From a virus, in IMG/VR virus record IMGVR_UViG_3300029266_000300, positions 1-28,091 of that record: a DNA stretch of 28,091 nucleotides. One strand, written 5' to 3'. Of the stretch, positions 1 to 28,091 are shown piece by piece. The notes under the pieces were generated by a model. The model ran no database searches, was not told the DNA's origin, and was given only the letters and a program-made list of their open reading frames with translations. Both the position numbers and the translations under genes were made by a program. Position 1 is the stretch's first letter. Each line of letters starts with the position of its first letter.

Positions 1-86
1 AAAAAGAATATTAAAAATCAAAAATGATCTAAGTAATTGTAAGTAATAGATTAATTTATACAGTACAGCAGCCGTTTAGCATGGCG

Positions 87-103
87 GTTAACTAACAGTT
101 AAC
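87..103. repeat. Inverted repeat GTTAACT-AAC-AGTTAAC
   Basis: Two perfect 7-bp half-sites surround a 3-bp centre, the shape of a dimeric repressor operator. The 11-mer GGTTAACTAAC that includes the left half recurs at 7274-7284, just downstream of a good sigma70 promoter. The first ten bases recur at 11487-11496 inside another promoter. The site overlaps the last codons and stop of a doubtful leftward ORF. A binding role is inference. Confidence 0.35.
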
Positions 104-333
104 AGTCTAAAAATAATAATACCTATATAAACAAGGTAAAAACAGGCTGCATAAAAGCACAGTAATTTAATAATAACTATTCTAGCCAGCCCTTTAGCCC
201 TGATATTTCCAGCCGTTACGATATAATAAAACAAGTGCGGGTGGTGCTGTTGTGCATGCTCACAGCCTTGGACCTCGAACAGACAACTAGCCAGCCTGCA
301 GGCCCTAAGCTCCTGCGCTTTCATATGCGACAT
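88..333 (-). CDS. Doubtful small membrane protein (81 aa)
   Basis: I do not recognise this protein. The ORF could also begin at a TTG at 342, but the ATG at 333 is more natural; neither has a visible Shine-Dalgarno sequence. The N-terminal half is rich in Cys, His and Ala. The last 30 residues are strongly hydrophobic (IVIIKLLCFYAACFYLVYIG and following) and could form one membrane helix. It lies downstream of a leftward terminator (497-518) and of a possible leftward promoter (367-394), which makes it possible as a gene. The lack of an RBS, the AT-rich 3' half and no family resemblance keep confidence low; it could be chance coding potential. Confidence 0.28.
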   Translation of the reverse strand: MSHMKAQELRACRLASCLFEVQGCEHAQQHHPHLFYYIVTAGNIRAKGLARIVIIKLLCFYAACFYLVYIGIIIFRLLTVS

Positions 334-366
334 TGGCGGCAATTGGTGAAATTGTAAGTTGTTCTA

Positions 367-394
367 ATTGTTAACTTTCCCGGTACCTGGTCAA
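367..394 (-). promoter_or_regulatory. Possible leftward sigma70 promoter
   Basis: Read leftward: TTGACC (394-389), a 16-bp spacer, then AACAAT (372-367). This is 5/6 and 4/6 to the sigma70 consensus. It sits between the terminator at 497-518 and the ORF starting at 333. A second TTGACC lies upstream (around 445) with a poorer -10. Confidence 0.35.
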
Positions 395-496
395 GACTGT
401 TTTGACATAGGCATATACGACAATAGCGTTCTTTCTGGTCAAAGTGCTGGGCAGATATGCAACCAGCTAGAACTTGCTCAACCGTAGGACATGAAA

Positions 497-518
497 AAAC
501 CCGCTCTAAAGCGGGTTT
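497..518 (-). terminator. Rho-independent terminator of the left accessory unit
   Basis: A 9-bp stem AAACCCGCT/AGCGGGTTT closes a 4-nt loop. On the minus strand it is followed by T6, so it ends leftward transcription of the unit made of the genes at 1452 to 546. The stem arms are identical to those of the terminator at 1538-1559. Confidence 0.85.
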
Positions 519-545
519 CTTTAGTTTTGGGGCTGTTGGTGCTTA

Positions 546-656
546 TTACTGCAATGCATATCCAAACAGCAGGAACAGCCAGCCAGCGGCGAATATAGAA
601 GCGCAGGCAATAAAGTCTAACAGCCAGACAAGAACAGTTTTAAAAGTATTGTTCAT
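546..656 (-). CDS. Tiny membrane protein, 36 aa
   Basis: The ATG (656-654) overlaps the TGA of the preceding 28-aa ORF as ATGA, and the frame runs to TAA at 546-548 with a second in-frame TAA next to it. The product begins MNNTFKTVLVWLLDF and continues as one hydrophobic helix of about 25 residues ending LFGYALQ. No separate Shine-Dalgarno sequence is visible, so translation probably depends on coupling. It is the last gene before the terminator at 497-518. Single-helix phage microproteins can act as lysis modulators, superinfection-exclusion factors or toxins; nothing here decides. Existence is supported by overlap geometry and position, function is unknown. Confidence 0.6.
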   Translation of the reverse strand: MNNTFKTVLVWLLDFIACASIFAAGWLFLLFGYALQ

Positions 657-739
657 TTGCCAGCCCACAAGAACAGCATAAACACAGCAACAAAACCAAT
701 CAACGGAACTATCATAAATGTGAATATGTCAAAAGTCAT
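653..739 (-). CDS. Tiny membrane protein, 28 aa
   Basis: This ORF starts at ATG 739-737, overlapping the TGA of the YodL-like gene as ATGA, and stops at TGA 655-653, which overlaps the next start in the same way. GGAG lies 7 bases before the ATG, a proper ribosome binding site. The product begins MTFDIFTFMIVPLIGFVAVF and ends FLWAGK: almost entirely one transmembrane helix with a short acidic N-terminus and a C-terminal Lys. Two successive 4-base overlaps plus an RBS make this a convincing gene despite its size. Function is unknown; a two-component small membrane complex with its 36-aa neighbour is a guess. Confidence 0.65.
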   Translation of the reverse strand: MTFDIFTFMIVPLIGFVAVFMLFLWAGK

Positions 740-1161
740 TGGGCTGCTCCGATTTGATTGCACTGCAGGTTTAAATCTATATCGCTCAATTCATGCCAGC
801 CATTTGCCATGCATACTGTCACAGTCTTATCAACCAGCCCAACAACTAAATCACCTACGGACATGCTAGGATGCCTGCATATGTCTAGACGTTCTAAGGC
901 TCCTGTGCCGTGTCCGTTGCCTTCGTCAAATATATCCTCAAGGGTTTGCCTGTTACGAGATCCGGTTGCACTCATAAACATTGTTGGAACATACAGCCCA
1001 GCCTCAACAGCAGCCGTAACACAGGGTTCGGCTTCTTTACCCATGCCCAGCCGTATTAGATCAAAGTAGGCTTTAGCTTCTGGGCTGTTGGGTCTTAGCT
1101 CTAAAGTTTCCTGCAACTCTGGGCTGTTGATAGGACGTTGAAATATTAAATAACTGTGCAT
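736..1161 (-). CDS. YodL-like domain protein (141 aa)
   Basis: A GGAGG sequence lies 9 bases before the ATG, inside the end of the upstream 95-aa gene, so the start is secure. The C-terminal half (residues about 60-128) has the order TLEDIFDEGN, then HPSMSVGDLVV, then CMANGWHEL. This resembles the YodL-like family, where LEDIY, SxSVxDVV and a C-terminal GF/GW-x-E/L recur. Such domains are common on plasmids, integrative elements and phages, often next to DUF932-like or antirestriction-like genes; their biochemical role is not established. The N-terminal 60 residues are unassigned. It is translationally coupled to the 28-aa membrane ORF downstream. The family call is from memory and moderate. 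Confidence 0.6.
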   Translation of the reverse strand: MHSYLIFQRPINSPELQETLELRPNSPEAKAYFDLIRLGMGKEAEPCVTAAVEAGLYVPTMFMSATGSRNRQTLEDIFDEGNGHGTGALERLDICRHPSMSVGDLVVGLVDKTVTVCMANGWHELSDIDLNLQCNQIGAAQ

Positions 1162-1164
1162 TGT

Positions 1165-1452
1165 TTATACCTCCACAAAAACGGTTGTTGTTGGCTTCAA
1201 GAATATTTCATGACCTCCCCACGGGTAATTTTCATCACTACAGGAATAATTGGCGGGACCAAAAAAGTCTTTACGGTTATAGTGGTTACGCTCCAAAGTC
1301 ATTTTAGCATCAAACTTGCGTTTAAAGGTTTGCCCCTTCTTTAGGCTTTTAAGCTCAACGGCTTTATACTCAATGTCGTCATGTCCGGTGAATGTCATAG
1401 GCTCGCCATGTGCTGCTTCATAGGCTTTCATTTTTTTCATAAGTTCGTTCAT
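1165..1452 (-). CDS. Hypothetical protein (95 aa)
   Basis: First gene of the promoter-proximal unit downstream of a good leftward promoter (1498-1527). The leader carries the recurring GAAAGTGACC element 7 bases before the ATG. The product begins MNELMKKMKAYEAAHGEP, and its middle is basic (KSLKKGQTFKRKFDAK). The C-terminal part is aromatic-rich and ends in a beta-prone TTTVFVEV. No signal peptide or membrane segment is seen. I do not recognise a family. Its last codons contain the GGAGG used by the YodL-like gene, so the two are expressed together. Confidence 0.65.
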   Translation of the reverse strand: MNELMKKMKAYEAAHGEPMTFTGHDDIEYKAVELKSLKKGQTFKRKFDAKMTLERNHYNRKDFFGPANYSCSDENYPWGGHEIFLKPTTTVFVEV

Positions 1453-1497
1453 TGTGTGTGGTCACTTTCATGGTTGGGCGCTTGGTTGCGCTGCGCG

Positions 1498-1527
1498 ATT
1501 GTACGCTTTTAAATGTTCCAAAGTAAA
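1498..1527 (-). promoter_or_regulatory. Leftward sigma70-type promoter
   Basis: Read leftward: TTTACT (1527-1522), 18-bp spacer, TACAAT (1503-1498). The -10 is 5/6. It lies between the terminator at 1538-1559 and the ATG at 1452, exactly where a promoter for the second leftward unit is needed. Confidence 0.6.
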
Positions 1528-1537
1528 GCCCAATAAA

Positions 1538-1559
1538 AAACCCGCTAAAAAGCGGGTTT
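1538..1559 (-). terminator. Rho-independent terminator after the DUF932 unit
   Basis: A 9-bp stem AAACCCGCT/AGCGGGTTT encloses an A4 loop (T4 on the transcript strand), followed leftward by T6. It starts 8 bases after the stop of the 48-aa gene. The arms are identical to those of the terminator at 497-518, which points to duplication or shared origin. Confidence 0.85.
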
Positions 1560-1566
1560 CTATAGT

Positions 1567-1713
1567 CTATTTTAGCTTAGATATTTTCTTGTCTATCTCC
1601 CGCTTTTTTCGTTCTAAGGCTGCAGCCCTGCGCCGTATTGTTCTGTTGCTGGGTCCGTCATGAACTTTCCCGTGAACCTGACCGCCGTGGCGCTTTATTG
1701 TATAACCTACCAT
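1567..1713 (-). CDS. Small basic protein (48 aa), coupled to DUF932
   Basis: The ATG (1713-1711) shares its A with the TAA of the DUF932 gene (TAATG), and the frame ends at TAG 1569-1567, 8 bases before a strong terminator. The product begins MVGYTIKRHGGQVHGKVHDG. Its C-terminal half is highly charged and helix-prone (IRRRAAALERKKREIDKKIS), with about 17 Lys/Arg in 48 residues. That suggests a nucleic-acid-binding or coiled-coil peptide. No independent Shine-Dalgarno sequence is visible, so translation is probably by reinitiation. The tight position between stop and terminator is the main support. No family is recognised. Confidence 0.6.
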   Translation of the reverse strand: MVGYTIKRHGGQVHGKVHDGPSNRTIRRRAAALERKKREIDKKISKLK

Positions 1714-2591
1714 TACGCAGCCGCCATGAAATTATTTGCAAGCTCGAACAAGTCAGCGTTGATTTTAGTATTACCAGTGACTGCAGTTATGGCTCTAGCC
1801 TTACGCAAGCGACCTTCTGGAAACTTGGTCGAAGTGCTTACAATCTCAATAGGAGCGCAGCCAGTACCGTTGCAAAATGTTTCCTGCACTTTGTTAAATA
1901 GGTTCCAGAGATTATTAGGTGCATCACTATCACGCCTGACCTTTAACATTTGGTCAATTGTTTCATTGGTCCAATAACTGGCGTTCTTGACTGGTGCATC
2001 ATAGGCCCTGTTTGAGTGAACATAAAGCGGTTGCCAGCCCCGCAGCCTGCAGGCCTCACGTGCAAATTGACGCTGTGAACTTTCGTCTAGGCTGGTGGTT
2101 TCAACCATACGCTGGATAGTGTCCATAACATTAGGCAGGCTTTTCACTTTATCGCGCACAATGTCCTCATATGCTGTGACTGTAGCAGCATTGTGGCGCA
2201 GCCGTGAGAAAACCCCAGCAGAAGCATAAACAAGATTATTGCTGCATGCATATCTAAACATACCTTGGCCTAAGCCTAAGCTTGTCCGCTTGTTATGACT
2301 GTTCAAGATTATCAATTGCGGGTTTGTGTTTCCGTTATCTAATCCAGAAAACATTTGATTAAGGTTTTCATTTTCAAACCGTATCAAGTGCGCAGCGTAT
2401 GCGCTGTTTTCTGGTTTTCTGCTGTGCTGCTGGCTGGCATGCACTGGCTGGAAGCCGTGGTCCGCCAATATCTCAACCGCTGTTCCGGTATTAATAAAAC
2501 CATAACGGCTGGTTACATTTGGGCTGGCTACATCAGATAGCGCAGCGGGAGCCATTTTTGAAACTAAATCTTGTGTTTGGAAGTCTAACAT
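1713..2591 (-). CDS. DUF932 family protein (292 aa)
   Basis: The ATG at 2591 is preferred over an in-frame GTG at 2603, because that GTG belongs to a GTGACC element repeated in front of other genes, including out of frame. Near the N-terminus the sequence SRYGFINTGTAVEILADHGF followed by PVHASQQ matches the DUF932 pattern (Y-x-F/I-x-T...L...GF-P...A-Q). Further on, IRFEN, PQLIILNSHN and MFRYACSNNLV fit the beta-rich core of this family, in which a host-specific hairpin region is followed by R..CxN. DUF932 proteins are frequent on plasmids and phages; their function is not settled. No membrane segment is seen. The family call is firm, the function unknown. Confidence 0.8.
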   Translation of the reverse strand: MLDFQTQDLVSKMAPAALSDVASPNVTSRYGFINTGTAVEILADHGFQPVHASQQHSRKPENSAYAAHLIRFENENLNQMFSGLDNGNTNPQLIILNSHNKRTSLGLGQGMFRYACSNNLVYASAGVFSRLRHNAATVTAYEDIVRDKVKSLPNVMDTIQRMVETTSLDESSQRQFAREACRLRGWQPLYVHSNRAYDAPVKNASYWTNETIDQMLKVRRDSDAPNNLWNLFNKVQETFCNGTGCAPIEIVSTSTKFPEGRLRKARAITAVTGNTKINADLFELANNFMAAA

Positions 2592-2616
2592 ATTTTTGGT
2601 CACTTTCTTTTAGTTG
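2592..2616 (-). promoter_or_regulatory. Conserved leader/RBS element before DUF932
   Basis: Read leftward: CAACTAAAAGAAAGTGACC, then AAAAAT and the ATG. AAGAAAGTGACCAAAAA recurs exactly before the 71-aa gene (2871-2890). GAAAGTGACC recurs before the 95-aa gene, and a close relative lies at 16558-16595. It resembles a degenerate extended Shine-Dalgarno sequence (AAGGAGGTGA), but the conservation extends beyond that. Confidence 0.5.
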
Positions 2617-2619
2617 GTT

Positions 2620-2647
2620 GGCTGGGCAATGGTATTACTGCCCAGCC
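2620..2647. repeat. Inverted repeat GGCTGGGCA / TGCCCAGCC
   Basis: A perfect 9-bp stem with a 10-nt loop lies between the stop of the 71-aa gene and the DUF932 leader. No T-tract follows in either direction, so it is more likely an mRNA-stabilising or processing hairpin, or an operator, than a terminator. Confidence 0.5.
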
Positions 2648-2654
2648 TAATAAA

Positions 2655-2870
2655 TCACATAACTTGAAAACCGTGTTCGGTTGGATTAGCGCGATAGGTA
2701 ACAGAAGCAGCTTCAAACACTGCATGCCAGCGGCCTGTTTTAGCATCACATATATTAATGTGATTAATCCACTGTAAATTGCAGCCGCGTATTGCAAAGT
2801 CTAAAGCCTTACGGCTTCCGAAATTTCTAGCACTGCGATTTACTTTTAAAACCGATTTAACTTGTAGCAT
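2655..2870 (-). CDS. Hypothetical protein (71 aa)
   Basis: The ATG at 2870 follows the shared AAGAAAGTGACCAAAAA leader. An in-frame upstream extension exists but lacks an RBS and reads through that leader. The product begins MLQVKSVLKVNRSARNFGSR and contains LDFAIRGCNLQWINHINICD near the middle, ending HGFQVM. It is small, mildly basic and soluble, with two Cys. I do not recognise a family. It lies between the DUF7178-like gene and the DUF932 gene; a possible own promoter with an extended -10 lies about 120 bases upstream. Confidence 0.55.
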   Translation of the reverse strand: MLQVKSVLKVNRSARNFGSRKALDFAIRGCNLQWINHINICDAKTGRWHAVFEAASVTYRANPTEHGFQVM

Positions 2871-2890
2871 GTTTTTGGTCACTTTCTTGG
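2871..2890 (-). promoter_or_regulatory. Conserved leader/RBS element before the 71-aa gene
   Basis: Reads leftward CCAAGAAAGTGACCAAAAAC directly before ATG. It shares 17 consecutive bases (AAGAAAGTGACCAAAAA) with the DUF932 leader; the proteins that follow share no similarity beyond the first Met-Leu. Confidence 0.5.
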
Positions 2891-2987
2891 TTGGTGCAAC
2901 AAAACTATTCTGCTGCTGTTTGTTAAAGATCACACTTTTAAATGTTATACAAGTTTTATTTTAAAAACTGCCCAACCATTGCAGGAC

Positions 2988-2996
2988 AGTATACCA
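2988..2996 (-). promoter_or_regulatory. Possible extended -10 promoter
   Basis: TGGTATACT read leftward has the TGn extension and a 5/6 -10 (TATACT). It lies in the roughly 160-base gap between the DUF7178-like gene and the 71-aa gene. No good -35 is present, as is usual for extended -10 promoters. Confidence 0.35.
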
Positions 2997-3031
2997 GAAA
3001 AATAAAAACCCCACGACCATATATATATATT

Positions 3032-3715
3032 TCATTTGATATTATGCATGTCTCGCCAGTGGTTCCAAGTGACAGCCTGCACTTGGCAGCCTGTTATGGC
3101 ACGGCTGGGTGGACCTTGTTCAATTTCATTTATCACTTCTGCAGCGCAGCAATAAGCATCAGCTATCTTGTAATATTCTTTTTTAGTTATGCTGCTTTTG
3201 GTGCTGCTTAGACTGTGGCGTTCTCCATAGTATATATTTTTGGCGTGACCATCGACACAAACTGAATTAATGCCCCTTAAATAATCTGGTTGTCCTGCAT
3301 ATCTTATACAGTCATAAAAGGCTTTTGTTTTTAATCCGTTTAGTATTGTTCTGGTTGCTTCTGTTTCCTGTTCTAAGTTTTCACAGTCTAGCTGTAGTAT
3401 ATCAATAGTTTTGTGTTTGTTGTTGTTATAGGTTGATACTTTTATATCTAACAGATTAGCTCCTGCGCTGTAGCCCTGCGCCATATGTTCGGCATCAATA
3501 ACATTTTTGGGCCATTTGTTATTGGGCGATAGTCCACTAGCTGCGCCAATAACCCTCTCAACATTTAAACCAGATTTGACTGCAATGGCATCAAATGTTT
3601 TGTAGGCTATGTTATACCATTGCTTGCCATATTGTTTGGTTGCTTCTGGTGCCGAATAATACACACCTAAAATATTAAGTGCCGACAGCCTGCGCTGTAG
3701 TTCGCCATGTTCCAT
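3032..3715 (-). CDS. DUF7178-like phage protein (227 aa)
   Basis: AAGGA lies 8 bases before the ATG. Motifs in order are GAASGLSPNNKWPKNVIDAE (about 57-76), VSTYNNNKHKTIDIL, LNGLKTKAFYDCI, SVCVDGHAKNIYYG, EYYKIADAYCCAA, and QAVTWNHWRD near the C-terminus. This order (LSPNNxW.N..DA, TYxxNKxKA, L.G.KT..FY, VDxHA, YR.IA.AY, QA.TW..WR) is one I know from a family of uncharacterised phage and plasmid proteins now called DUF7178. The spacing of helices and the invariant Asp-x-His-Ala invite comparison with helix-hairpin-helix nucleases or glycosylases, but I cannot support a reaction. It is the first gene of the leftward unit, 5' to the 71-aa, DUF932 and 48-aa genes. Confidence 0.65.
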   Translation of the reverse strand: MEHGELQRRLSALNILGVYYSAPEATKQYGKQWYNIAYKTFDAIAVKSGLNVERVIGAASGLSPNNKWPKNVIDAEHMAQGYSAGANLLDIKVSTYNNNKHKTIDILQLDCENLEQETEATRTILNGLKTKAFYDCIRYAGQPDYLRGINSVCVDGHAKNIYYGERHSLSSTKSSITKKEYYKIADAYCCAAEVINEIEQGPPSRAITGCQVQAVTWNHWRDMHNIK

Positions 3716-23637: not shown

Positions 23638-23842
23638 TTTCGTCTTCCCCTTTTTTAGACTTAGACTTGGATTTTTTAGTTCCCTTTAGTTCTTTAGAGG
23701 CTTCTAAAAACTTTTCTTCAAACTCATCAAAAAACTCTGGGGTATAGTATAAACCGCCTTCTGCATTCTCAGCAGTCTTGCTTGCAGAATTTCCTTTGAT
23801 AAAGTCTTTGATTGACTTTTTTATAGCGTCTTCAAATTTCAT
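23627..23842 (-). CDS. Small virion-module protein (71 aa)
   Basis: It begins MKFEDAIKKSIKDFIKGN, continues through GGLYYTPEFFDEFEEKF, and ends in a Lys/Ser-rich tail (KGTKKSKSKSKKGEDENE). The N-terminal part recalls short proteins that sit beside the 'MKFD.P.PG' gene in other marine phage structural modules. It overlaps both neighbours (11 bases each side). The basic tail could bind DNA or an acidic partner, such as the acidic C-terminus of the next gene's product. Function unknown. Confidence 0.68.
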   Translation of the reverse strand: MKFEDAIKKSIKDFIKGNSASKTAENAEGGLYYTPEFFDEFEEKFLEASKELKGTKKSKSKSKKGEDENEV

Positions 23843-26219
23843 TTGAAATCATCCCGTAGTTAACCATAAGATACCCGTGTTCGCCTGTAACAACAGCTTC
23901 TGGATGTGTTTTCTGTACTTCTTGAGCAATTACTCCAAAGGTAGGATGCTTGTCTGCACCTATTCGTAGACCTTCTTTGTTCCAATCCCATTGATAGAAG
24001 TTAATTCCTTTAAGCGTATCTACCTTGCGAATGTTAGTCTTAAGACGTTTATCAGACATTTGAAACAGAGTAACAATTTTTGTTGCCGTATCTATGGCAT
24101 CGCCAAATTTGTTAGACTTTGCAGGAGGAGTTACTCCGTACTGGCCTGTGATCTGCGCCCTAAGTATTTCCATATCCCTATCAGCTTCACTGTTATAGTT
24201 CTTAAAGATATGGTCTAGCATACTGTCTGTACGATCCCATAACCTATTCTGTGCTTCTGTTGAGATATCTAGTTTGTTCTTAACATCCATAGAGTGTGCT
24301 TCCCACTCCATTTTAGTATTATCCTTTAAGACACTCTGACGCCACTTAGCGTTACTAACATCAATGTTGTATTGCATTTCTGCATAGAACCTGTCTCTGC
24401 TATCTTCCATTTCGGCATTAAATTCTGAAGCATCATTTATCTCTCCAGCATTAAACTTTTCCATAGCATTAAATTCTTTAGCGTTCTGCATCTGTATTTG
24501 GGCATTGAGGTTGTCGTAGTACTTGTTCATCTCATTCTGAGTTTCAGCCGTAAACAAACGCTGGGCATTTACAATTTTGCTGTCTTCAAAGAGTGCCTGT
24601 ACCATAGCCTCTTTATTAATTACTTCAGCCTGCTGTTCATTGGTAAGGTTCTTTAAATCCATCTCTAGGAATGCTTTAGCATTCTGTACAGCCGCTGCCT
24701 GTCGAGCATCTAGGTTACCAAGCTCAAACTGAGCTAGTATTTTAGCTTTGTTTATAATGCCTTCCTGACGGTTGTCAAGATTTTTTATTGTGATGGACTG
24801 AAAGAATGCAGCTTCTTTATCTGCAATTCCTAGAGTTGATTCCATGATAGCATTTGCATATGCTGCAGTAGCCGCACTACCGGACATACCGCCAAAAGCT
24901 ATACTCTTCTGTACTTCTCTGAGAGTACCCTGCGCCCATGTTGGGATGCGAGGCTCTCCATTAGCATCTACAAATTCTGCAGAGATGATTTTCATCTGAC
25001 CAAGGATAGTAGACTTGGCGTCTGTGTAGTTACCTTCTCCTAGTTTCTGGGCTAGAAGCTTACCCTCTGGGGTACTAGTGTCGATTATAGATGAAATATT
25101 CTGTGTAGCAAAATCGTTGAGGGCGTCACCTAAAACTCCTGTGCCGTCAGCCTCTGCGCCAACATCAATGGCAATGTCGTCAATGTCTACTAGATTATCA
25201 CTGTCAATTTTACCAGTAACCGCATCAACTTTAGTTTTATCTGTTAGCTTATCTGCATTAGTTTCAGCATTGTAAGTAACTGTTGTAGGCTGACCTACTT
25301 CTGCAACGTCTGTAGTGACCCCTTCAACTACGTCTACCTGAGGGTTATCTCCTAAGTCATACTTAGCGTCTGTACCATCAATAAGAGTTCCCTCAGCATT
25401 TACATCCATACTAGGGACTACATCAGAGTAAGAAATACCTTTGCTGTCTAGCCATGCCTGAGGGTCTGCTACAATAGCTTCCATGTCGGCTGTAGTAGCT
25501 TCAACTCCAGAAGTTTTGACCCATTCCTTAATAAGGTCTGCGTCAAGTGCGGTAGTTGCCCCTGTAGAAGTTGCTTCTCCTGTTATACCTGTTTCGGCAT
25601 TGGATGCAGCCTCAGCTTCAACTTTATCAGCACCTTCATTGTCTCCAGATGCCCGTAGATTAGCGGCTTGTATTTGATATCCGGTACGACCATCAGGGTC
25701 TGTTGCATCTACCATTGATAAAGTATCCGTCCATTTTCCATCGACTTCAGTTACAGAATAGGGTAAACCTATCATATTCATAGCGTAGTGTGAGCCATCG
25801 TTTTTTATGTATATAGCTCTTTTTTGGCCGTTTACATCTCTAGCATCACCTTGTACCATGTCATCTGTACTTTTAGCGCCCCCTAGCCAAGTCAGTACTC
25901 CCGGTATAATACCCTCTATACCTGTGCCATCCGTAACACTACCTTGTTTTTTTAGTCCTTTAGTTGTATTTTTAATAGCAGTAGTGTTTGCTGTATTAGT
26001 GTATCCAGTATTCATAATACCTGAGTATTCGGCGTTTCCATCATCGTCTGAACCATATCCACCGCTGGTATTTACCGCTACAGCCTGACCTGCATTATCC
26101 CCAGAGTCATACTGAAGTTCACCTCCGACATAAGACGCTCCATCACCTCCTGTAAAAGTATTAGCTATGCTCTCACCAAGACTGTTACCACCGCCTACAT
26201 TATCTGACCACCAACTCAT
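23832..26219 (-). CDS. Peptidase S74 (intramolecular chaperone) protein, fibre-like (795 aa)
   Basis: The last 75 residues (721-795) are a short S74 domain: SDKRLKTNIRKV contains the Ser722/Lys727 dyad at the usual spacing, then FYQWDWNKEG, FGVIAQEVQKTHPEAV and GYLMVNYGMI. S74 domains fold trimeric fibres and then cleave themselves off just before the Ser-Asp. Residues about 480-700 form an Asn-rich coiled coil with repeated FNA units (AKEFNAMEKFNAGEIND; ASEFNAEMEDS). The first 470 residues are Gly/Thr/Asp-rich and beta-prone. It could be a tail or head fibre, or a trimeric internal protein. AGGA precedes the ATG, which shares TAATG with the o-spanin gene. Confidence 0.82.
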   Translation of the reverse strand: MSWWSDNVGGGNSLGESIANTFTGGDGASYVGGELQYDSGDNAGQAVAVNTSGGYGSDDDGNAEYSGIMNTGYTNTANTTAIKNTTKGLKKQGSVTDGTGIEGIIPGVLTWLGGAKSTDDMVQGDARDVNGQKRAIYIKNDGSHYAMNMIGLPYSVTEVDGKWTDTLSMVDATDPDGRTGYQIQAANLRASGDNEGADKVEAEAASNAETGITGEATSTGATTALDADLIKEWVKTSGVEATTADMEAIVADPQAWLDSKGISYSDVVPSMDVNAEGTLIDGTDAKYDLGDNPQVDVVEGVTTDVAEVGQPTTVTYNAETNADKLTDKTKVDAVTGKIDSDNLVDIDDIAIDVGAEADGTGVLGDALNDFATQNISSIIDTSTPEGKLLAQKLGEGNYTDAKSTILGQMKIISAEFVDANGEPRIPTWAQGTLREVQKSIAFGGMSGSAATAAYANAIMESTLGIADKEAAFFQSITIKNLDNRQEGIINKAKILAQFELGNLDARQAAAVQNAKAFLEMDLKNLTNEQQAEVINKEAMVQALFEDSKIVNAQRLFTAETQNEMNKYYDNLNAQIQMQNAKEFNAMEKFNAGEINDASEFNAEMEDSRDRFYAEMQYNIDVSNAKWRQSVLKDNTKMEWEAHSMDVKNKLDISTEAQNRLWDRTDSMLDHIFKNYNSEADRDMEILRAQITGQYGVTPPAKSNKFGDAIDTATKIVTLFQMSDKRLKTNIRKVDTLKGINFYQWDWNKEGLRIGADKHPTFGVIAQEVQKTHPEAVVTGEHGYLMVNYGMISNEI

Positions 26220-26464
26220 TACAGTTTATCCTTTTCTGTTCTACAAACTCTAATAGCATCTCTCAGAGCGGCATAGTCTTGTATTGCGGTTTCAATGGCA
26301 GAATTTTTGCTAGGAAGTTCTTCAACTTCAGTAGCTAACTGTTGGTTGTAGTCAGGGGAGTAGTCTTTTATACTAGGACAGTATACCTCTAGGCTAGTCC
26401 TATAGACCGTTCCCCCGCAGGCGGTCAGTAAGACCATCCCTATCGGTAATAGTAGTTTTTTCAT
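26219..26464 (-). CDS. o-spanin, Rz1-like outer-membrane lipoprotein (81 aa)
   Basis: The ATG at 26464 starts a lipoprotein signal: MKKLLLPIGMVLLTACGG with lipobox LTAC and lipidated Cys16. The mature 66 residues contain two further Cys and a charged C-terminus (RVCRTEKDKL) able to contact the inner-membrane partner. An upstream in-frame extension to 26566 would destroy the signal peptide and is rejected; AAGG lies about 12 bases before the chosen ATG. The first 65 bases of the gene lie inside the i-spanin gene in another frame, the classic Rz/Rz1 nesting. It works with i-spanin to fuse inner and outer membranes at the end of lysis. Confidence 0.85.
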   Translation of the reverse strand: MKKLLLPIGMVLLTACGGTVYRTSLEVYCPSIKDYSPDYNQQLATEVEELPSKNSAIETAIQDYAALRDAIRVCRTEKDKL

Positions 26465-26639
26465 GCTCTGACATTGCCTTGTAGAAGTCTTTTGCTTTTT
26501 CCTGTGCTTGAAGATCATCCTTAAGCACTTTGTTTTGTTCATTAGCTGAACCTTTGACACGACCAATTATGTATAATATAGGTAACGCTATAGCTAACGC
26601 AGCAATTATATATGTCTTGATCTTACCAAAGATAAACAT
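26400..26639 (-). CDS. i-spanin, Rz-like (79 aa)
   Basis: N-terminal membrane anchor (YIIAALAIALPILYIIGRVK, residues about 10-29) followed by a periplasmic helical charged region (LKDDLQAQEKAKDFYKAMSE) suited to a coiled coil. It is a type II inner-membrane topology as expected of i-spanins. It starts in TAATG overlap with the endolysin gene, with AAGAAGG upstream, and its 3' end overlaps the start of the lipoprotein gene in a different frame. At 79 residues it is shorter than lambda Rz, as is common in small marine phages. Gene order endolysin, i-spanin, o-spanin supports the call. Confidence 0.83.
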   Translation of the reverse strand: MFIFGKIKTYIIAALAIALPILYIIGRVKGSANEQNKVLKDDLQAQEKAKDFYKAMSEHEKTTITDRDGLTDRLRGNGL

Positions 26640-27370
26640 TAATGTATGCCTTCTTTATGATCTTTCATACGGGCATATGCCGCCAAGGCAATTCCACCCA
26701 CTGCTACAATTAAGAAGATAGTTTTCATGCTGGCTGCATAAGGAACAAGAGCCTGTAGCTGAGGAGCTAATTCACCCAGCATAGTTGCTGTTCCTGCTAC
26801 GCCTACTCCTGCCATAGTTTTAGATTTTATAAGTTTCTTAGGAGCCGCTGAAGTAACCTTCTGGGGCATAGCGGAGCCATTATCATCACTAGGGATAGAT
26901 GCATCCATAGAAAATACTGATGCCTCAGCCGCACGGCGTCTAGTAAGACCTGCAAGAGGCTGCAGTACACCAGACACACGGGCTTTATTCCATTTCATCA
27001 TTTCTGATGGGATATCTTCATACAAACCTTTATTTAATTTTTTTAATAGTGTTGAGGATGCAAGGTTTCCTTCACCCAAATTATAAGTCCATGAGACTAG
27101 ACTGTCAAATTGCGATTGACTTAGGGGTACATTTACTTTACGTTTTACGGCATGTTCAAACTTCTGCACATCATTACGTAAACGGTCCTCACACTCTTGC
27201 GCGGTCCACTTAGTACCACTCTTGACGCCGTATGTGGTTCCCCAACCGCACGTCCAAACCCCTGCAGGGCAACGGTAGCTGGATACAGTTCCGTCAGGTT
27301 GTACACGATGTAGACCTTCAAACTTTTTAATTAGGTTAAAACCGGACTCTGATGTTTGTACTGGATGCAT
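26639..27370 (-). CDS. GH24 endolysin with C-terminal membrane segment (243 aa)
   Basis: A phage-type lysozyme (muramidase) that cleaves peptidoglycan. KKFEGLHRV supplies the catalytic Glu18, and YRCPAGVWTCGWGTT gives Cys34 and Thr40 at the spacing of the GH24 Glu-Asp/Cys-Thr triad; PLSQSQFDSLVSWTYNLGEG (82-101) and PLAGLTRRRAAE (138-149) are conserved further on. A 7-residue insertion lies between Glu18 and Cys34. After the domain ends near 155 there is a linker, a Gly/Ala-rich helix and a clear transmembrane segment (IFLIVAVGGIALAAYARM, about 218-235) with a basic end. There is no N-terminal signal. AAGG precedes the ATG. The C-terminal anchor is unusual for GH24 enzymes. Confidence 0.88.
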   Translation of the reverse strand: MHPVQTSESGFNLIKKFEGLHRVQPDGTVSSYRCPAGVWTCGWGTTYGVKSGTKWTAQECEDRLRNDVQKFEHAVKRKVNVPLSQSQFDSLVSWTYNLGEGNLASSTLLKKLNKGLYEDIPSEMMKWNKARVSGVLQPLAGLTRRRAAEASVFSMDASIPSDDNGSAMPQKVTSAAPKKLIKSKTMAGVGVAGTATMLGELAPQLQALVPYAASMKTIFLIVAVGGIALAAYARMKDHKEGIH

Positions 27371-27379
27371 GATATGCCC

Positions 27380-28091
27380 TTAAGATGAGGTAGATGCGTA
27401 GAGATTATCTGAAACAATATCTTGCCTAGCGAAACCGCCTTCAGCAGCCGAACCTGCAGGGCTTAGTTCACCCATAGACGTATTCGTTCCAGTAGAAGGT
27501 ATTGCCTTCATTGCGGTTATTGATTTATCTATGTTAATCATTTTTCGTCCCATGCTCTGACCACTAGCATCAAAACGATCTATGAGTAAGTTACCTTGGT
27601 CATCTATCTGACGTTCAAGGGTAGTTCCGTTAGCTTCAATTTGATTTGTAATTAACTCACCGCTATCATCAAAGGCGTTGCCTAGCTGGTGGAAATCTTG
27701 CCTCAATCCAATATCTAAGGTTTCTATATCAGAAGCCATAGAAGCCATATTCCTAGTTTGAATATTTGCTGCAGCGGCTGCAGTAGTAGCTTCCTCACTT
27801 GCCGCCTGCCTAGCGTCTTGGAAACCCCCGTCTAGGGTTTGGGCAGTGGCTGCTTGACTTTCTGATATCTGATTACTTATCTGATCTTGCCCTGTAGCAG
27901 CCGCTTGTGCGAACCCGCCTATGTCTTCTCGTAAGAGTGCATCTCTATTGGTTGCAATCTGTGCGGCATCTACACGGGCCTGTTGTGTTAATGAAGTGTC
28001 TTCACCATAACGGTCTATGTAAGTGTCAAAGCTAGATTTAAAGGTGTCTTGTCCAGCTTGATTAGCACGTTGGTTTTCTAAGCTTGTGGCT
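27380..28091 (-). CDS. Coiled-coil virion or fibre protein, partial (at least 236 aa)
   Basis: The reading frame is open from the right edge of the window to TAA at 27380, so the true start lies outside; an ATG at 27748 is internal. The visible part is rich in Gln, Ala, Asp and Asn and built of short helical repeats, for example GQDQISNQISESQAATAQTL, GFQDARQAASEEATTAAAAA, then D-x-G-x-L units in DDSGELITNQIEANGTTLER and DDQGNLLIDRFDASG. The C-terminus is Gly/Ser-rich (TGTNTSMGELSPAG). No enzyme motif is present. Its place just before the endolysin and its repeat composition suggest a tail-fibre or other elongated virion protein. Confidence 0.7.
   Translation of the reverse strand, partial: ATSLENQRANQAGQDTFKSSFDTYIDRYGEDTSLTQQARVDAAQIATNRDALLREDIGGFAQAAATGQDQISNQISESQAATAQTLDGGFQDARQAASEEATTAAAAANIQTRNMASMASDIETLDIGLRQDFHQLGNAFDDSGELITNQIEANGTTLERQIDDQGNLLIDRFDASGQSMGRKMINIDKSITAMKAIPSTGTNTSMGELSPAGSAAEGGFARQDIVSDNLYASTSS

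Follow-up and report, generated by a model that had tools for sequence, protein, structure and literature searches.

N-terminal SAR endolysins, which work with pinholins, are held at the membrane and need a trigger for release. Two-TM pinholins have a weakly hydrophobic first transmembrane (TM) helix and a stronger second helix. A known but uncommon kind of endolysin has its TM domain (TMD) at the C-terminus. LysAP, the endolysin of Acidovorax phage AP1, lyses E. coli when expressed alone; without its TMD lysis is abolished and the protein accumulates in the cytosol. LysAP lysis is accelerated by a separate holin, HolAP, and delayed by azide (PMC8879335). M4Lys of phage BSPM4 also lyses E. coli when made alone, and its TMD alone is bacteriostatic, not lytic. 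According to the accessible part of that report, the authors saw no Sec dependence, found that azide delayed lysis and did not block it, and predicted an N-out, C-in orientation with the catalytic side facing the periplasm (PMC7143992). The Siskin endolysin is predicted to be N-in, C-in with two C-terminal TM helices and is encoded alongside a holin whose TM is N-terminal (PMC6498227), while the work on Enc34 calls such an arrangement uncommon (PMC8943055), in both cases judging from the available portions of the papers. Few phages with tested C-terminally anchored endolysins are described in the literature available in part, and how these enzymes cross the membrane is unsettled there. In excerpts of two further reports, Cobavirus endolysins are free of anchors and have one- or two-TM candidates nearby (PMC6775973), and Campylobacter phages include examples whose lysis genes are not grouped in a cassette (PMC7692668).

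The window that we analysed is a virus record of 28,091 bases with no further contig, a fragment of a marine HMO-2011-type phage. On its minus strand, like all lysis features below, it encodes an endolysin of 243 residues (26639..27370) that combines a GH24 lysozyme with a C-terminal membrane module and is supported by Pfam, PHROG and full-length relatives. This protein is an added member of the C-terminal-TMD kind, with an N-terminal hydrolase domain, a C-terminal TM segment and no N-terminal signal or SAR sequence. Our favored reading, to which we assign a probability of roughly two in three, is that it is a membrane-tethered GH24 endolysin timed by separate proteins encoded beside TerS, in a split lysis cassette.

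The layout described in the initial annotation, a GH24 domain followed by a linker, a Gly/Ala-rich helix and a TM segment, is borne out. The catalytic domain spans residues 6-153 (26912..27355), as supported by Pfam, PDB lysozymes, conservation and AlphaFold: Pfam Phage_lysozyme (PF00959) matches residues 29-149 at E = 4e-40, and residues 6-153 can be aligned with solved PDB lysozymes. E18, C34 and T40, which we take to be the catalytic residues of the GH24 motif, are conserved in 60/60, 60/60 and 59/60 distinct sequences, respectively. A linker (residues 156-183; 26822..26905) that is disordered in the AlphaFold model (pLDDT about 30-35) leads to helix 1, which is Gly/Ala-rich and weakly hydrophobic (residues 186-207; 26750..26815; GES 1.03 over residues 186-205), and then to the C-terminal TM helix (residues 211-234; 26669..26740), with a Kyte-Doolittle mean of 1.95 over residues 212-230. 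The protein ends in a short charged tail (residues 235-243; 26642..26668), delimited by sequence and charges. The annotated TM segment stands; the tail RMKDHKEGIH is of mixed charge and not simply basic. The AlphaFold model, built from 48 rows (38 window-type, 7 GH24 proteins with the second module discussed below and 3 without a module), has a mean pLDDT of 75. Its lysozyme domain is confident (mostly 84-93); confidence is low over residues 158-206, and the model places helices at 191-206 (pLDDT below 50) and 213-239.

It could be argued that the hydrophobic stretch does not work as an anchor and that the endolysin is of the usual soluble type, leaving the cytoplasm by way of a canonical holin. 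The C-terminal helices are modeled with only moderate confidence, and shuffled versions of the endolysin reach a Kyte-Doolittle mean of 1.95 in 597 of 20,000 trials, so the single-sequence TM signal is only modestly above chance. What makes the TM segment secure is its conservation across relatives. A scan returned 169 window-type relatives, of which the best 80 were retained for counts; these are related sequences, not independent samples, and all 80 have a segment of at least 1.6 within the last 60 residues. Within the protein, conservation is highest in the C-terminal module, with a mean pairwise identity of 0.75 compared with 0.69 for the GH24 domain (60 distinct sequences). Together with the cytosolic, non-lytic behavior of LysAP lacking its TMD (PMC8879335), these observations leave a soluble enzyme very improbable. 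A tether, as the initial annotation suggested, is likely, given the conserved TM and the LysAP precedent.

No holin family appears among the Pfam and PHROG matches of the endolysin at E values up to 1. A match of its C-terminus to phrog_17373 ('peptidase'; E = 1.9e-5) was set aside. Of 14 records, 4 match, and three of these are the same lysozyme C-termini; thus, no peptidase that carries a window-type module was found.

The charge pattern of the module bears on which way the enzyme faces. Our TM and topology calls rest on hydropathy and charge counts. Among the best 80 of 169 window-type relatives, mean net charge is +3.46 before helix 1, -1.95 between the helices and +0.46 after the second; the first stretch is positive in 80/80 and the middle is not positive in 80/80. 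This pattern favors a hairpin with both ends inside. The initial annotation had proposed a topology prediction, and the charges do yield a preferred N-in/C-in hairpin, with the reservation that the window-type tail is net positive in only 40/80. The second module (49 rows; +2.35, -0.96 and +2.71 for the same three stretches) has a positive tail in 49/49 and is the better hairpin fit.

Alternatively, the module could act as a C-terminal SAR sequence, with the enzyme exported by Sec, held in the periplasm N-out, C-in, and released when a pinholin collapses the proton motive force. This mechanism was proposed for LysAP, for which the azide delay and the effect of HolAP are in its favor (PMC8879335), and the accessible part of the M4Lys report predicts the same N-out, C-in orientation (PMC7143992). 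That report also describes an azide effect limited to delay, which speaks against export of this type. In our endolysin, the positive charge before helix 1 favors a catalytic side that faces inward, and an N-terminal export signal is lacking. The absence of a signal peptide, noted in the initial annotation, was confirmed: the best 19-residue Kyte-Doolittle mean in residues 1-155 is 0.41, hence no hydrophobic segment, and a segment of at least 1.6 within the first 45 residues was found in 0 of 79 window-type relatives (from the best 80 of 169). The weakly hydrophobic N-terminal signal-anchor of SAR endolysins is likewise missing. We consider a C-terminal SAR mechanism unlikely.

Spanin genes directly follow the endolysin. 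The i-spanin gene (26400..26639; Rz-like, 79 residues) starts on the last base of the endolysin gene, at 26639; its product has an N-terminal TM (Kyte-Doolittle 2.17 at residues 7-25) and matches the Rz-like spanin family phrog_1026 (E = 1.2e-5). The o-spanin-like lipoprotein (26219..26464; 81 residues), with a lipobox, LLTAC, identified by eye, starts within the i-spanin gene. It matches Pfam LysC (Rz1-like) at E = 0.002, under the curated cut-off, and the Rz-like spanin family phrog_456 at E = 0.036. An i-spanin with an N-terminal TM and an overlapping o-spanin gene are the marks of a two-component spanin, here with an o-spanin family match below cut-off. The three lysis genes are thus contiguous, as the initial annotation stated. 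Beyond them, a gene for a long virion-type protein (23832-26219, minus strand) ends in a C-terminus, SDKRLKTNI..., whose last ~75-90 residues match tail-fibre, virion-structural and DNA-ejection PHROGs. This C-terminus may be a self-cleaving chaperone domain.

On the other, upstream side of the endolysin lies a long ORF (27380..28090) that runs off the window, has no PHROG match and is not a small membrane protein. Relatives also carry a long ORF here (300-590 residues among 12 of 66 rows listed). The initial annotation saw no neighboring holin gene, and this holds across the group: a small TM gene abuts the endolysin in 0 of 66 assessable loci, defined as those in which the sequence ahead of the endolysin exceeds 700 bases; many of these loci are near-duplicates. 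This absence is one argument for the proposal, also made in the initial annotation, that the enzyme carries its own holin or pinholin in its C-terminal module. On this view, the two helices would oligomerise and depolarise or breach the membrane, so that the enzyme could pass without a separate holin. LysAP (PMC8879335) and, in the accessible part of its report, M4Lys (PMC7143992) lyse E. coli alone, and the weak first and stronger second helix resemble the pinholin layout. Against it, the M4Lys TMD alone does not lyse (PMC7143992, accessible part), and the complete relatives and the second module point the other way, as set out below.

The closest named relatives of the window are the HMO-2011-type Roseobacter phages CRP-235, CRP-738, CRP-212 and CRP-3. 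Their gene order matches, and over the full length the endolysin shares 61-64% identity with their lysozymes. Compared with the CRP maps, the window comprises the left portion and, in addition, a few kb of leftward genes typical of the right end of the isolates; the region that runs from the tail genes to beyond TerL and TerS is absent. Because the window is a fragment that does not include the TerS region, a holin missing from it carries little weight. Leftward genes of the CRP right-end kind (1-3715) directly precede the rightward early genes. The contig thus probably spans the genome ends of the isolates, and circular permutation or end repeats are likely. Two overlapping, strongly hydrophobic minus-strand ORFs beside an early gene (546-668 and 653-763; 40 and 36 residues) were considered as holins and are weak candidates; they match no family significantly, and the four CRP genomes contain no homologue.

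We searched for a contig that bridges the clade of the window to the TerS side and found none; the candidates either run in the wrong direction or come from a different subgroup. In the phage collection, tblastn recovered the window-type module only from the four CRP phages, the AP1-type C-terminal module only from AP1 and a spring-metagenome type only from two records. A scan of genome contigs gave a single window-type relative among 461 pattern matches, on a 3 kb contig (L173; DLZA01000392.1) that is binned in a Rhodobacteraceae MAG and may be phage sequence that strayed into it.

All four complete relatives (CRP-3, CRP-212, CRP-235 and CRP-738) encode small membrane proteins next to TerS, ~20 kb from the endolysin. 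In a hydropathy scan of every ORF of at least 30 residues in these isolates, one strongly hydrophobic annotated protein of unknown function, apart from the endolysin and spanins, was kept in 4/4. This protein, the gp50 type (gp48 in CRP-738), has about 150 residues and one C-terminal TM, is encoded near TerS and, where scanned, belongs to phrog_32327 together with HMO-2011 gp60. Two further proteins recur, a small one that resembles a signal peptide (gp51 type) and one of 184 residues with weak hydrophobicity; they seem less likely as holin candidates. Further candidates are CRP-235 gp46 (97 residues, N-terminal TM, coiled coil) and gp47 (158 residues, three hydrophobic segments), both with counterparts in CRP-3, and CRP-738 gp45 and CRP-212 gp43 (88 residues, C-terminal TM), encoded at or near TerS. 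The search for a holin elsewhere in the genome, envisaged in the initial annotation, yields TerS-side membrane proteins in the relatives, but none of the gp45, gp46, gp47 and gp50 types reaches a holin family cut-off; the best match, to XhlA (E = 0.004), is below it. Family searches for the gp50 type returned only a PHROG of unknown function and do not identify it as a holin. Six long contigs of the group of the window carry the gp50 type in four cases, the gp45 type in three and the gp46 type in none; two (L069 and L015), which may be incomplete, have none of the three.

Gene neighborhoods in other phages suggest a holin function for these proteins. In the CRP genomes they do not adjoin the endolysin, but their homologues precede C-terminally anchored endolysins in unrelated cassettes of other phages. 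In contigs L119, L122 and L147, the two genes that immediately precede the anchored endolysin show 41-48% identity to CRP-235 gp46 and gp47 (E 1e-23 to 1e-42); in L151 the gp46-type gene is divided between two ORFs, and the gp47 match reaches 49% (E 3e-48). Homologues of CRP-738 gp45 (46-53% identity) lie upstream of the anchored endolysin in L130, L132, L133, L140 and L149, and gp50-type homologues adjoin the endolysin in L132 and L133. The gp50 type directly precedes the CHAP endolysin of CRP-403 and lies slightly upstream of the amidase of CRP-406. Its distribution covers 12 records: the four isolates, six Autographiviridae roseophages, CRP-406 and one pelagiphage. Proteins of this type (L023, L024, L025, L026, L035, L036, L037, L038 and L040) recur near TerS or lysis genes in several unrelated phage groups.

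Both the CRP-403 CHAP and the CRP-406 amidase endolysin end in a C-terminal TM. A scan with their C-termini gave 50 relatives of a second module, with the pattern QSKTVQA...LDGTAQ...[TM]...ERL..W..G.R (viral contigs L119-L168). We compared 45 proteins with Pfam: those of CRP-403 and CRP-406 and 43 of the 50 relatives, the other seven being truncated at an end. With an E value of 0.001 or less, 17 carry Amidase_2, 10 Phage_lysozyme, 6 Peptidase_M15_4 and 4 CHAP. Given these different domains, the second module travels among enzymes of four catalytic families. Profile comparison of the window-type and second modules (hhalign) gave a probability below 6%, and we do not claim a common origin. In the second-module group, 33 of 40 assessable loci have a small TM gene immediately upstream of the endolysin, versus 0 of 66 in the group of the window. 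An anchor alone thus does not make a small TM gene dispensable. This co-occurrence, and the membrane-protein candidates in 4/4 complete relatives, leave unsupported the idea of an anchor that substitutes for a holin, and a built-in holin is in our view improbable.

The tethered, separately timed enzyme can be pictured as follows. The lysozyme domain would be made in the cytoplasm, and the C-terminal two-helix module would hold it at the inner membrane, most likely with both module ends inside, instead of leaving it as a free cytoplasmic enzyme. Separate TerS-side small membrane proteins may then open or depolarise the membrane and so time release or access to peptidoglycan. These could be a one-TM coiled-coil protein (the gp45 type, or gp46 and gp47 as a pair) together with the C-terminal-TM protein of the gp50 type. 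The neighboring i- and o-spanins would then complete the process at the outer membrane. The cassette would be split, with endolysin and spanins in the tail region and the holin candidates at TerS, a locus that in sister phages also houses the endolysin. We infer the topology, the order of events and the presence of the TerS-side proteins in the phage of the window itself. One could also envision the module as a pinholin fused to its enzyme: the weak helix 1 would leave the membrane, the second helices would assemble and release would be self-triggered, with the TerS-side proteins tuning the timing as antiholin or accelerator. This scenario is speculative and we think it doubtful. If true, marine phages would use such modules as interchangeable parts for GH24, amidase, M15 and CHAP enzymes.

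HMO-2011-type phages offer a natural contrast between a TM-less endolysin at TerS and an anchored endolysin far from it. HMO-2011, CRP-1 and CRP-345 encode the endolysin right at TerS; the two of these endolysins that were checked, from HMO-2011 and CRP-1, lack a TM segment and have small TM proteins beside them. In CRP-235 and its kin, the TerS slot holds membrane proteins and no endolysin, and the endolysin and spanins lie ~20 kb away. The endolysin and spanins appear to have been relocated or replaced in this subgroup. The accessible main text of the two main papers on these phages (PMC9038755, PMC6918029) does not contain the words 'holin', 'endolysin' or 'spanin', and our analysis supplies named holin candidates for them. 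It also adds to the anchored endolysins a large marine clade and a second anchor module common to four catalytic families; in the literature as far as accessible, we found no account of a C-terminal TM module common to GH24, amidase, M15 and CHAP endolysins.

Among known systems, the lysozymes of CRP-235, CRP-738, CRP-212 and CRP-3 belong to the same protein family and have the same neighbors as the endolysin of the window. They are annotated only as lysozyme, and the available text of the papers describing these phages (PMC9038755, PMC6918029) does not name the lysis proteins. The CRP-403 CHAP and CRP-406 amidase endolysins share a C-terminal SKT-helix-TM-tail module, a downstream i-spanin-like gene and an upstream gp50-type gene, but have other catalytic domains, and homology of their module to that of the window is unsupported by profile comparison. 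The initial annotation expected an unusual lysis arrangement. It is indeed uncommon, but less unusual than supposed, since the LysAP, M4Lys, Enc34 and Siskin endolysins share the C-terminal TMD design. As described in the accessible reports, M4Lys and the Enc34 ORF39 and Siskin endolysins likewise have their catalytic domain at the N-terminus and one or two TM helices at the C-terminus; M4Lys and Enc34 differ in their catalytic domain, PHA02564, and Enc34 has a holin-like gene within its cassette. LysAP is the closest characterised protein (37% identity over residues 4-241) and shares the GH24 domain, the lack of an N-terminal signal and the C-terminal TM. AP1 differs in having HolAP directly upstream and no spanin found by its authors (PMC8879335), whereas the endolysin of the window has adjacent spanins and no abutting small TM gene. 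Like N-terminal SAR endolysins, the enzyme is probably membrane-held, but its anchor is at the opposite end of the protein.
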